Assembly: GCA_013151245.1 (NCBI GenBank)
Contig: JAADIR010000090.1
Coordinates: 1-32,001 of the forward strand
Source: Chlorobiota bacterium
GTDB taxonomy: Bacteria; Bacteroidota; Ignavibacteria; Ignavibacteriales; Melioribacteraceae
DNA: 32,001 nucleotides
Direction of reading: 5' to 3'
Shown here: positions 20,599 through 25,909 of the stretch, piece after piece
Numbering within the stretch: the first letter of the stretch is position 1
Layout: each line of letters opens with the position of its first letter
Translations under genes and position numbers: made by a program
The notes under the pieces: generated by a model
Databases searched by the model: none
What the model was told of the DNA's origin: nothing
What the model saw: the letters and a program-made list of their open reading frames with translations, nothing else

Positions 20599-21702
20599 TT
20601 AATTATCATTATTAAAAACAATTTCGACGTCCGACAAAGCGTAATTATAATTCGTTATGCTGATCCGAGCCGCAAGATTTTTCCCGATTGAACTGATTAT
20701 CTTTGCGTTTTCAGTTTCGGGCAGAGCGTGAACAATCGGTTTCCCTTGATCGCCGCCCTCGCAGATTCTCGGGTCAATTGGTATTCCGCCTAAGAAAGTC
20801 GCGTTCAAATCCTTAGCGAGTTTCTCTCCGCCGCCGCTGCCGAAAATATTGTAAGTTTTGCCTGTATCCGGCGCAATAAAATAACTCATATTTTCGATAA
20901 TCCCAAATACCGGAACGTTTACTTTTTCAAACATTTTCAATCCCTTTTTTGCGTCGATAAGAGAAACATCCTGAGGAGTAGTTACAATCACCGCTCCCGT
21001 CAAAGGAATAGTTTGGACGAGCGTTAATTGGATGTCGCCCGTTCCTGGAGGCATATCAAAAATAAGATAATCGAGTTCGCCCCAATTTACGTCGGTTAAA
21101 AACTGTTTGATTGCGCCGGAAGCCATTGGACCGCGCCAAATAACGGGGTTGTCTTCGTCAATTAAAAATCCAATCGACATTAATTTCACGCCGTAACTTT
21201 CAAGCGGCGTCATTTTGTTTGTTCCGGCTTCCTGATAAATTTTCGGATGACCCGAAATTCCGAGCATTAGGGGAATAGAGGGACCGTAAATATCGGCGTC
21301 AATCAATCCGACTTTCGCGCCGTCTTTAGCAAGCGCCACGGCAAGATTGACTGCGACTGTACTTTTACCGACTCCGCCCTTGCCCGAAGCTACGGCGATA
21401 GTATTTTTAACGCCGGGGATTATTTCAGCTCCCGTATGTTCGCGCTGCGTAACGTTGGAAATCATGTTCACTGATATTTCAATGTCGCCGCCGAATTCTT
21501 CTTTCAAAGCGTTAACGCTATCGGTTTTTAATTTATCTTTCAACGGACATGCGGGAGTCGTTAATTCAACGGAAACTTCAATTTTATTTCCGTCAATATT
21601 TATCTCTTTCACCATATTTAACGTAACCAAATCCTTATTAAGATCAGGGTCAATAACTTTGCTCATCGCTTTGAGAGCATTCTCTTTCGTGATATCGCTC
21701 AT
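20599..21702 (-). CDS. mrp: Mrp/NBP35-family P-loop ATPase with N-terminal MIP18/DUF59 domain
   Basis: N-terminal VIDPDLNKDLVTLNMVKEI; VASGKGGVGKSTVAVNLAVALA (deviant Walker A); LIDADIYGPSIPLMLG; IFDMPPGTGDIQLTL. Confidence 0.95.
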   Translation of the reverse strand: MSDITKENALKAMSKVIDPDLNKDLVTLNMVKEINIDGNKIEVSVELTTPACPLKDKLKTDSVNALKEEFGGDIEISVNMISNVTQREHTGAEIIPGVKNTIAVASGKGGVGKSTVAVNLAVALAKDGAKVGLIDADIYGPSIPLMLGISGHPKIYQEAGTNKMTPLESYGVKLMSIGFLIDEDNPVIWRGPMASGAIKQFLTDVNWGELDYLIFDMPPGTGDIQLTLVQTIPLTGAVIVTTPQDVSLIDAKKGLKMFEKVNVPVFGIIENMSYFIAPDTGKTYNIFGSGGGEKLAKDLNATFLGGIPIDPRICEGGDQGKPIVHALPETENAKIISSIGKNLAARISITNYNYALSDVEIVFNNDN

Positions 21703-21901: not shown

Positions 21902-21915
21902 ATTAAGTAGTCTAA
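21902..21915. promoter_or_regulatory. Degenerate copy of the putative DtxR-like operator
   Basis: ATTAAGTAGTCTAA shares ATTAAGTA and a CTAA-type right arm with the 16-nt element at 21955. Weak on its own. Confidence 0.3.
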
Positions 21916-21954
21916 AAACAAACCGGGATAAAATTTAATAAACTTGATAAATAA

Positions 21955-21970
21955 ATTAAGTATGCTTAAC
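21955..21970. promoter_or_regulatory. Putative DtxR-family operator upstream of the feo-like operon
   Basis: ATTAAGTATGCTTAAC; palindromic arms TTAAG-N4-CTTAA; identical 16-mer at 23658-23673; 27 nt before the regulator ATG. Confidence 0.55.
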
Positions 21971-21997
21971 TTATCGGCGGAATAAAATATTTTAAAA

Positions 21998-22666
21998 ATG
22001 AAATCAATATCGCAAGAAGATTATATTAAACGCATTTACAAAATGCAGAGCGGGAACAAAAGTTCGGTTGCTTCCGGGAGTTTAGCCATTGAGCTGGGAG
22101 TGTCAAAAGCGGCGGTTACCGATATGACAAGAAAGCTTGCCAAAGAAGGTCTGATAAATTATCAATCGTACAAAGGATCTTTTTTAACGCGGAAAGGAGA
22201 GAGGAAAGCGCTTGATATTATTCGCCGGCACCGGTTGTGGGAATTATTTCTGGTAGAAGCATTGAATTTAAATTGGGCGGAAGTTCACGACGAAGCGGAA
22301 AATTTGGAGCATTATACATCCGAATTCTTGATAAACAGAATTGACAAGTACTTAAACTTCCCTGAATTCGATCCGCACGGCGACCCGATACCGGACAAAA
22401 ACGGGAAACTTCCGAAAACGAGAAAAAGAATTCAATTGAGCAAAACGAAATCGGGAAAAGATTTTGTCGTTTGCAGAGTGGACGATAAAAATGCCGGCTT
22501 AGTTGATTATTTGGGAAAAGTTGGAATTGGAATCGGAGTGAAACTCAAAATAATCGAACGGTTGGAATTTGACAATTCCGTGATGTTAAAAATCAAAAAA
22601 AAAGAAATTGTTCTGAGTGAAAAGATAGCTGAAAAAGTTTTTGTCTCGGAGTTGAAAGATGAATAG
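21998..22666 (+). CDS. DtxR/MntR-family metal-dependent transcriptional regulator with C-terminal FeoA/SH3-like domain
   Basis: SQEDYIKRIYKM, LGVSKAAVTDMTRKLAKEGLINYQSYKG wHTH, RRHRLWELFLVEALNL, VHDEAENLEH metal-binding/dimerisation motif, DPHGDPIP. Confidence 0.93.
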   Translation: MKSISQEDYIKRIYKMQSGNKSSVASGSLAIELGVSKAAVTDMTRKLAKEGLINYQSYKGSFLTRKGERKALDIIRRHRLWELFLVEALNLNWAEVHDEAENLEHYTSEFLINRIDKYLNFPEFDPHGDPIPDKNGKLPKTRKRIQLSKTKSGKDFVVCRVDDKNAGLVDYLGKVGIGIGVKLKIIERLEFDNSVMLKIKKKEIVLSEKIAEKVFVSELKDE

Positions 22667-23672
22667 TCCGGTAATATTATTGCTGTTGGGCGTTTTGATT
22701 CTTGCGCTCCCTGTATTTCTTTTCCATCCGAAAAAAGGATTGATCGCGCTGCTAAAAAGATATAATAGAGACGCCGAAAAGGAAAAGATTGAAAATGCGT
22801 TGAAACATATTTACGACTGCGAGTATAGAGAGCATTACTGTTCGCTTGAAAGTATTGCCGGAAACCTCGGCGTTACTTCCGATAAATCGTCCTCAATTTT
22901 CGACGATCTGGAGAAACGGAATTTGGCTTTAACCGGCAACGAAGGAATTAAACTAACCGCCGAGGGAAGAGATTACGCGTTGCGTCTTGTCCGCATTCAC
23001 AGATTGTGGGAAAGATATTTGGCGGACGAGACCGGAGTCGATCCGGATCAATGGCATATAGACGCTGAAGAAAAAGAACATGACTTAGTCGATAGCGCAA
23101 ATGAAATTGCCGAGAAAATCGGAAATCCCGTCGTCGATCCTCACGGCGATCCTATTCCGGATAAGGACGGGCAGATATTCAAACTCGAAGGTAAAAGTCC
23201 GCTTGACCTTGAACGGGGCGAGATTGCCAAAATTGTTCATATTGAAGACGAGCCCGATTCTATTTACGCGCAGCTGATGGCGCAGGGTTTATACAAAGGA
23301 ATGCAAATCCAAATTGTCGAAAAAAACGACGGTAAAATTGTTTTTTCAGCCGATGGAAAGGAAGTTGTTTTGGCTTCTTCTTTTGCAAATAATTTAACGG
23401 TTGCGCCAATTACCGCGAAAGAGGAAATTAAGGAATCATTTCAAACGCTCGATTTGCTCGAAGAGAATCAAGAAGCGGAAGTCGTCGGATTTTCGGGGAG
23501 AATAAGGGGACAGCAAAAGAGGCGTTTAATGGATTTGGGAATTATTCCGGGCACGAAAATTAAAGCGCTCCTAAAATCCCCATTCAATGATCCGGTTGCA
23601 TATTTGATTAGAGGGACTACAATTGCATTGAGAAAAGATCAGTCGGAAGGAATATTTATTAAGTATGCTTAA
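22659..23672 (+). CDS. Membrane-anchored DtxR-like protein with C-terminal FeoA domains
   Basis: N-terminal TM (SPVILLLLGVLILALPVFLF); DtxR-like wHTH (YCSLESIAGNLGVTSDKSSSIFDDLEKRNLALTGNEGIKLTAEG); RIHRLWERYLADETGVDPDQWHIDAEEKEH; DPHGDPIPDKDG; an SH3-like segment; then a second FeoA-type segment (EAEVVGFSGRIRGQQKRRLMDLGIIPGTKIKALLKSPFNDPVAYLIRGTTIALRKDQSEGIFI). Confidence 0.88.
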   Translation: MNSPVILLLLGVLILALPVFLFHPKKGLIALLKRYNRDAEKEKIENALKHIYDCEYREHYCSLESIAGNLGVTSDKSSSIFDDLEKRNLALTGNEGIKLTAEGRDYALRLVRIHRLWERYLADETGVDPDQWHIDAEEKEHDLVDSANEIAEKIGNPVVDPHGDPIPDKDGQIFKLEGKSPLDLERGEIAKIVHIEDEPDSIYAQLMAQGLYKGMQIQIVEKNDGKIVFSADGKEVVLASSFANNLTVAPITAKEEIKESFQTLDLLEENQEAEVVGFSGRIRGQQKRRLMDLGIIPGTKIKALLKSPFNDPVAYLIRGTTIALRKDQSEGIFIKYA

Positions 23673-23673
23673 C
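23658..23673. promoter_or_regulatory. Second copy of the putative operator, overlapping the stop codon of the preceding gene, upstream of feoB
   Basis: ATTAAGTATGCTTAAC, exact copy of 21955-21970; ends 8 nt before the feoB G-domain ATG at 23682. Confidence 0.5.
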
Positions 23674-23681
23674 AAAATTAT

Positions 23682-24497
23682 ATGACAACACAAACAGAAT
23701 CAAATTGCGTAAACTGTCCGGTTCACAATGCCGCCCATCTTAAAAAGCTCGGCGTTAATATGAGCGATTATGATTATCTGGTTGCGCTTGCCGGAAATCC
23801 GAACACCGGGAAAAGCACGGTTTTTAATTCTTTAACGGGATTAAAACAGCACACGGGCAATTGGCCCGGAAAAACCGTTACGCGCGCCGAGGGCGGTTTC
23901 GAATACGATAACTCGAAATTTAAAATAATTGATCTGCCGGGGACGTATTCGCTCCTTTCAACGAGTAAAGACGAGGAAGTTGCGCGTAATTTTATTTTAT
24001 TCGGTCAGCCGGATGTAACGGTAATTGTTGTTGACGCAACGCGTCTTGAAAGAAATTTAAATTTAACTCTGCAAGTTCTTGAGATAACGGATAATGCGGT
24101 GCTCTGCCTGAATTTGATGGACGAAGCCGAAAGAAATAACGTTGAAGTTGACGCGCGAACGCTTTCTAAAATGCTGGGGATACCGGTAGTCCCGACTTCT
24201 GCGCGGACAAAAGAGGGGATTGACAATTTACTGAGAAGCATTAAAGAAGTTGCGACGGGCGAATACGTCTGCAAACCCCGAAAAGTAAAAAAAATGAATA
24301 GAAAATATCAGCGCGCCGTTGATACGCTTGTTGAAGATCTGAATAAAAATTTCACTAATCTTAAAAATCCGCGGTGGATTGCTATGCGTTTGCTTGAAGG
24401 AGATCAAAGTATTATCAACGCGTTGGAAGACGGTTCGCTGACTGCTGAAACGGAAAAAACAATTTCCGAAAATAACAAATTTGTCGAGAATAGATGA
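23682..24497 (+). CDS. feoB: FeoB-type GTPase domain (separate ORF)
   Basis: [32 protein letters not shown] (G1/G2), DLPGTYSL (G3), NLMD (G4), SARTKEG (G5); ends in TGA at 24495-24497 before the permease region. Confidence 0.92.
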
Positions 24498-25909
24498 ATA
24501 ACGTAAAAGAAATAGTGAACAAAGCAAACGTTCTTCGGTGGGAACTCGGAGAAAATTTTCACGATTCGCTAATTGAAGCGATTTACAAAGAAGCGGAAAC
24601 TATCTCAAAAGAAACGGTAAAGTTTAAGGGCGAAAATTATTCGTTTAGTCTTGATAGAACAATTGATAAGTATGTTACCAGCAGGCTATACGGTTTTCCG
24701 ATTATGCTTATTCTCCTTGCGCTTGTATTTTGGATTACAATTATCGGCGCTAATTATCCGTCGCAATTTCTTTCCACTCTCTTGCTCGACAAACTTCATC
24801 CGGTTTTGAAAGATTTTGCGCTCGGAGTTGGAGCGCCTTTTTGGCTGGTGGGACTTTTGATTGACGGCGGGTATCTAGCCACTGTTTGGGTAATTGCGGT
24901 AATGCTTCCGCCGATGGCGATTTTCTTTCCTCTTTATACGCTGTTGGAAGATTTCGGTTATCTGCCGCGAGTGGCGTTTAACATGGATCGTCTTTTTAAA
25001 AAAGTGGGAGCGCACGGAAAACAAGCTCTCACAATGAGTATGGGATTCGGCTGCAACGCCGCGGGCGTCGTTGCGGCAAGGGTAATAGACAGTCCGCGCG
25101 AACGTTTGATTGCGATAATCACAAATAATTTTTCGCTTTGCAACGGACGCTGGCCCACGCAGATTTTAATAGCGTCAATATTTGTCGGCGCTCTCGTGCC
25201 TGCGCAATTGGCTGGAATCGTTTCCGCGCTTGCCGTTGTTTCGGTTGCGCTGCTCGGAGTTTTCCTAAGTTTAGCGGTTTCGTGGGGACTTTCGCGAACG
25301 GTTCTTCAAGGCGAGGTCTCGTCTTTTAGTTTGGAGCTTCCTCCTTACAGACCGCCGAGAATTTTGCAAACAATCTACACTTCGCTTATTGATAGAACGC
25401 TTATTGTTCTTTGGCGCGCCGTTATTTTTGCATTTCCCGCGGGGCTTGTTATCTGGTCGGTTGCAAACATTACAATCGGCGGAGAACCTTTAGCTTCCTA
25501 CATAATAAATTTCTTTGATCCCGTCGGGATATTAATCGGTTTAAATGGAATTATTTTACTCGGGTTCGTCATCGCCATTCCCGCTAATGAAATTGTAATA
25601 CCGACGATACTTATGCTAACGGTATTGTTCACCGGTTCCGCCGCCGGTCACGAAAACGGCGTTCTTTTCGAACTCGATTCGCTCAAAGATACGGAACAAC
25701 TTCTGCGTCTCGGAGGATGGACGCTTCTTACGGCGGTGAACGTAATGCTCTTTAGTTTGATTCACAATCCATGCTCGACGACAATTTACACAATCTACAA
25801 AGAAACGGGAAGCTTGAAATGGACGCTTCTTTCAACATTTCTTCCCGTGGGAATGGGATTAATGCTAACATTTTTTGTCGCCCAAATCTGGAGAATATTT
25901 TCCGGATAA
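24494..25909 (+). CDS. feoB: FeoB-type membrane permease domain (separate ORF)
   Basis: [71 protein letters not shown] and [21 protein letters not shown], the FeoB gate motifs; many TM segments; ATGA overlap with the preceding ORF. Confidence 0.92.

Follow-up and report, generated by a model that had tools for sequence, protein, structure and literature searches.

A conserved candidate operator of DtxR type within the putative promoter of a feo operon

Why does a feo operon of a Chlorobiota bacterium carry the same 16-nt sequence twice, once before the gene of a DtxR-type regulator and once before feoB, and is either copy an operator? We analysed the locus within a stretch of 32,001 nt, hereafter the window. 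A preliminary description had proposed an autoregulated operon with a second, internal control point for feoB. The operon lies on the forward strand in the order dtxR1, dtxR2-feoA, feoB-GTPase, and feoB-membrane. The first gene (21998-22666, 222 aa) encodes a helix-turn-helix (HTH) domain, a metal-binding/dimerisation domain, and a FeoA/SH3 domain (PF01325, PF02742, PF04023). The second (22659-23672, 337 aa) encodes an N-terminal membrane helix, a DtxR-like metal domain, and a FeoA domain (PF02742, PF04023). No other DtxR-family protein was found in the whole genome, and of these two, dtxR1 alone has a recognisable DNA-binding domain (PF01325). FeoB is split (23682-25909) into a soluble GTPase ORF (23682-24497, 271 aa; PF02421, PF17910; TIGR00437 positions 1-191) and a membrane ORF (24494-25909, 471 aa; PF07670, PF07664; TIGR00437 positions 223-594) that overlap by 4 nt; the feoB matches of some relatives, L153 and L154 among them, are likewise in two parts. 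On the far side of the control region, on the reverse strand, is a divergent P-loop gene (20599-21702) that we take to be mrp/ApbC-like. In many relatives, tblastn places a match to it ahead of the feo genes and in divergent orientation.

The two copies are identical, as had been described: ATTAAGTATGCTTAAC occurs exactly at 21955-21970 (copy 1) and 23658-23673 (copy 2). Copy 1 is 27 nt from the ATG of the regulator (21971-21997) and copy 2 is 8 nt from the ATG of feoB (23674-23681), where it overlaps the TAA (23670-23672) that ends the dtxR2-feoA ORF; these details of the preliminary description were all recovered. Its 16-nt palindrome is in fact a 14-mer core, TTAAG-TATG-CTTAA, symmetric at 12 of 14 positions, whereas the outer A and C are asymmetric. 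The window has no further match to ATTAAGTATGCTTAAC with up to three mismatches. The motif had been expected not to be widespread, and copies 1 and 2 are indeed its sole matches with fewer than three mismatches in the whole genome (3.58 Mb). Given the base composition, the expected number of exact second copies is about 5e-5 in the window and about 0.006 in the genome. The looser consensus TTARGN4CYTAA has seven sites genome-wide, two of which are copies 1 and 2, in the same operon. A non-palindromic match with three mismatches, about 20 nt upstream of a Fur-family fragment that lies at the end of a contig (L161, G000 C289), is probably due to chance.

We carried out the scan of related genomes suggested in the preliminary description and found the core of copy 1 (21956-21969, forward strand) to be kept upstream of dtxR orthologs. 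Of the 51 homologous loci, which include 15 additional loci of the family and 6 drawn from another collection, 49 have the exact pattern TTARG-N4-CYTAA within 250 nt upstream of the regulator; in this count, the core columns are fixed by the search pattern and the flanking and central columns alone are independent. The family consensus is TTARG-YATR-CYTAA, and the core precedes the dtxR1 start by 27-61 nt in most of the 49 loci. The flanks are strongly conserved: a CTTGA element precedes the palindrome at constant spacing (C46 T48 T48 G48 A47 of 49 loci), and two T follow the palindrome directly (47/49 at each position). The site is also visible by eye, without any pattern search, in the sequences upstream of dtxR1 orthologs (~45-54% identity), and it is present out to Ignavibacteria MAGs at 44-49% protein identity. 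One of the two exceptions (L126) has a degenerate site, TTAAA-GACA-CTTAA after CTTGACA. The other (L135, genome G053) is a second dtxR1-like paralog, 46% identical, with neither dtxR2 nor feoB in the fetched stretch and with no operator. The site is shifted or degraded in L124, L126, and L033. Several Pedobacter homologs of dtxR1 (among L109-L118) have a different upstream palindrome, GTTAGACTAGTCTAAC or near variants, which is perhaps the operator of that branch.

The conserved flanks look like promoter elements. In the window, the putative -35 element, CTTGATA (21943-21949; CTTGA followed by C or T in the family), and the putative -10 element, TAACTT (21967-21972; TAAnTT in the family, often TAACTTTG), both on the forward strand, give the layout TTGATA-17 bp-TAACTT (21944-21972). 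The palindrome fills the spacer and runs on into the -10 element, with which it shares TAA. The -10 of many relatives, extended as TAACTTTG, agrees with the TAnnTTTG element of Bacteroidota. A generic promoter scan did not list the copy 1 site, and the assignment of -35 and -10 rests on their conservation. Copy 1 is thus an inverted repeat resembling TTAGG-N4-CCTAA that overlaps the putative promoter of an operon whose gene content indicates metal uptake. Two other elements had been pointed out in this region. The letters of a second inverted pair, TAAGT-N7-ACTTA, are there, but the comparison gives the pair no support: in relatives its right half is the putative -10 element (TAACTTTG) rather than half of an inverted repeat. 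The weaker copy at 21902 exists, with one mismatch, but it is not conserved, and its matrix score (6.8) is no better than that of unrelated matches in the window.

Could the palindrome act instead in RNA, by forming a hairpin in the leader or ahead of feoB? It can fold into a stem of 5 bp closed by a loop of 4 nt. However, folding is weaker than in most shuffled sequences at copy 1 and at copy 2 (z of +1.66 and +0.98, respectively), a fixed distance to CTTGA would be pointless in an RNA, and the transcription start predicted in the window, about 7 nt after 21972, is downstream of copy 1. We regard this explanation as extremely improbable. Since neither copy forms a hairpin as strong as the shuffle mean, a DNA-level site is favoured.

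If copy 1 is an operator, which protein reads it? The operons that lack dtxR1 are informative in this respect. There are 13 of them, all with dtxR2-feoA and feoB and most with mrp adjoining, and the operator site is upstream of none. On the dtxR2 protein tree, dtxR1 switches between presence and absence no fewer than 5 times if supported branches are counted, and the best tree gives 9 such changes. The operator tracks dtxR1 in a mean of 4.5 out of 5 independent pairs and never goes in the opposite direction, with too few pairs for p to fall below 0.05. The operator adjoins dtxR1, and a single deletion could remove both, which makes this co-loss weaker evidence than independent losses. As dtxR2 is present in all the operons, it does not by itself keep the operator site. 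These data also bear on another candidate reader of copy 1, either a factor of Fur type or one that regulates the divergent mrp gene. Two Fur-family matches were found in the genome, and copy 1 lies between divergent genes; yet the operator is missing where dtxR1 is absent even though mrp and feo remain, and the layout of copy 1 is that of DtxR-type sites, so that we find such a factor very unlikely. The conservation of copy 1, its geometry, and its co-occurrence with dtxR1 were all established computationally. The family-wide footprint (49/51), the promoter overlap, and the co-loss with the regulator strongly support copy 1 as the conserved operator of a DtxR-type autoregulated feo operon. 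To this extent the initial proposal stands, without its internal point at feoB.

The domains of DtxR1 are consistent with this role. Its N-terminal winged HTH is of the iron-dependent repressor type (PF01325, 49.6 bits for a cut-off of 26), and it is followed by the metal-binding/dimerisation domain (PF02742, 108 bits). The residues of the metal site are nearly invariant: H78 in 50/50 sequences; E82, H97, E104, and H105 in 49/50; and E101 in 48/50, all of them ligands if, as we assume, their roles are those of DtxR/MntR. Copy 1 is very probably the operator of DtxR1, acting as a metal-activated repressor of its own operon. We infer that DtxR1 binds copy 1, that it does so with metal, that it represses rather than activates, and that there is a promoter at this site. 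With enough Fe(II) (or Mn(II)) in the cell, a metal-loaded dimer of DtxR1 would sit on TTAAG-N4-CTTAA. The site fills the spacer between the putative -35 (CTTGAT) and -10 (TAACTT) elements and takes in the initial three bases of the latter, so the bound protein would exclude RNA polymerase. When metal is scarce, DtxR1 would leave the DNA and the operon would be transcribed.

The control exerted by DtxR1 appears to be local and autoregulatory. Across 79 genomes, the combined promoter and operator pattern matches mainly the dtxR1 sites. We rejected a wider regulon because the other matches are no commoner than those of reversed-pattern controls. The off-locus matches that we inspected fall mostly in coding sequence or near unrelated genes, e.g., a ParA-like gene in G045. 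The five TTARGN4CYTAA sites outside this operon in the present genome have no metal genes nearby.

The second copy raises a different problem. Its core, identical to that of copy 1 (23659-23672, forward strand), coincides with the last codons (IKYA) and the stop of dtxR2-feoA. We found no counterpart before feoB in the ~44 relatives examined, a comparison whose closest genome is 54% identical in DtxR1, the best match that a search for nearer relatives gave. A match near feoB in L134 was discarded as a counterpart, since it is inside feoB, at a contig end and in another position. Copy 2 also lacks -35 and -10 elements of the conserved kind (score of 1.6 with the promoter+operator matrix vs 39.5 for copy 1), and it does not duplicate the promoter. 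The second internal control point suggested for feoB is therefore not borne out by the relatives. At the same time, copy 2 is unlikely to have arisen by pure chance, given its exact identity and its position. Its core scores 20.2, within the range of the sites of relatives (lowest 17.3), and no sequence in 2 Mb of simulated DNA reached this level.

Two explanations of copy 2 must then be weighed. It is somewhat probable that copy 2 has no function and is either a coincidence or a remnant of local copying: it is unique to this genome and without promoter elements, and its first half, ATTAAG, is set by shared Phe-Ile-Lys codons. Such a coincidence requires ten further bases to match exactly, and the core is intact rather than decaying. 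It is also possible, if not quite probable, that copy 2 works as a lineage-specific second operator, where bound DtxR1 would block the elongating polymerase or cooperate with copy 1, adding repression of feoB only. The exact identity of the 16-mer, 1.7 kb away in the same operon, its score among those of relatives, and the location of two of the seven genomic consensus sites within the feo operon are in line with this possibility. Furthermore, the second half of copy 2 corresponds to the codons after the shared FIK motif, and protein conservation does not explain it. The absence from relatives and the missing promoter elements weigh against a working site, and the nearby promoter-like match (23628-23656, 9/12) belongs to a weak class seen in shuffled sequences too.

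The other DtxR-family protein of the operon differs from DtxR1. A strong N-terminal hydrophobic stretch is found in 55 of 57 dtxR2-feoA orthologs vs none of 50 dtxR1. The metal-site residues H114, E118, H133, E137, E140, and H141 are invariant (57/57), whereas neither PF01325 nor any recognised HTH family was detected and the HTH recognition region is variable among the 57 orthologs. A membrane-anchored DtxR-FeoA protein with an intact metal site is thus kept family-wide. Its features suggest a metal sensor for FeoB that is tethered to the membrane and has given up reading DNA. One can imagine a two-tier control of feo, in which DtxR1 would act at the promoter and as a roadblock at feoB, while DtxR2-FeoA would sense the same metal at the membrane and gate the split FeoB directly; we consider this scheme as a whole improbable. 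Our literature search found no paper on a membrane-anchored DtxR-FeoA protein. The known protein that dtxR2-feoA resembles in domain content is PgMntR of Porphyromonas gingivalis, which is of DtxR type, has twin FeoA domains, binds DNA, and is encoded together with a transporter of FeoB type (PMC4805248). In that paper a transmembrane part is not mentioned; dtxR2-feoA differs by its N-terminal membrane helix and its variable HTH region.

These results provide a testable operator and promoter geometry for the control of iron (or manganese) uptake in a little-studied bacterial family, in which operons with and without dtxR1 offer a natural comparison. The dedicated, seemingly local regulon and the membrane-anchored DtxR-FeoA protein bear on the control of FeoB, at a time when the role of FeoA is still debated.

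How does this system compare with known ones? We found no paper on the copy 1 operator. The closest solved relatives of DtxR1 are 5zr4, 8pvt, ScaR, and SloR. DtxR1 lacks the Asp8/Glu11 site of MntR: Asp8 is present (Asn in 34/50), and Glu11 is Lys (44/50). Nor does it have the Cys102/Met10 primary site of DtxR/IdeR, as it shows Glu101 and Asp8 at what we take to be the corresponding positions. Its scores are far below the cut-offs of the curated models for both the Mn-selective MntR (NF047407, 181 for 350) and the Fe-dependent DtxR/IdeR (NF053665, 69 for 290). The streptococcal ScaR and SloR (3hrs, 5cvi), which control Mn uptake, are homologous to DtxR1 from end to end, C-terminal domain included, but their operators differ from copy 1. 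The structure 8pvt is, we assume, that of DR2539 of Deinococcus radiodurans. Like DtxR1, DR2539 has Lys at the position of MntR Glu11, His at that of DtxR His98, and an SH3-like C-terminal domain; it binds an inverted repeat in a promoter with Mn(II) or Fe(II) and controls mntH rather than feo (PMC3327659).

The DNA site itself is best compared with the DtxR/IdeR box, a 19-bp sequence, TTAGGTTAGSCTAACCTAA, for which a 14-bp element, TTAGGNNNNCCTAA, was proposed as the site of one dimer (PMC8464063). IdeR still binds when C2 is changed to T in every CCTAA repeat (~105 vs 45 nM), and specific binding is lost when C1 and C2 are both changed (PMC8464063). The 5-4-5 layout with symmetric changes noted in the preliminary description is what we observe: TTAAG-N4-CTTAA is the CCTAA half-site with exactly C2 changed to T and C1 kept. 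Copy 1 is therefore like the DtxR/IdeR box in its layout and in the constant first C and third T of the CCTAA repeats, and it varies at the second repeat position, where IdeR tolerates change (PMC8464063). The family of copy 1 differs from the DtxR/IdeR box in the prevalence of TTAAG/CTTAA over TTAGG/CCTAA, in consisting of the 14-bp one-dimer site only, and in the linkage of the regulator gene to feoB.
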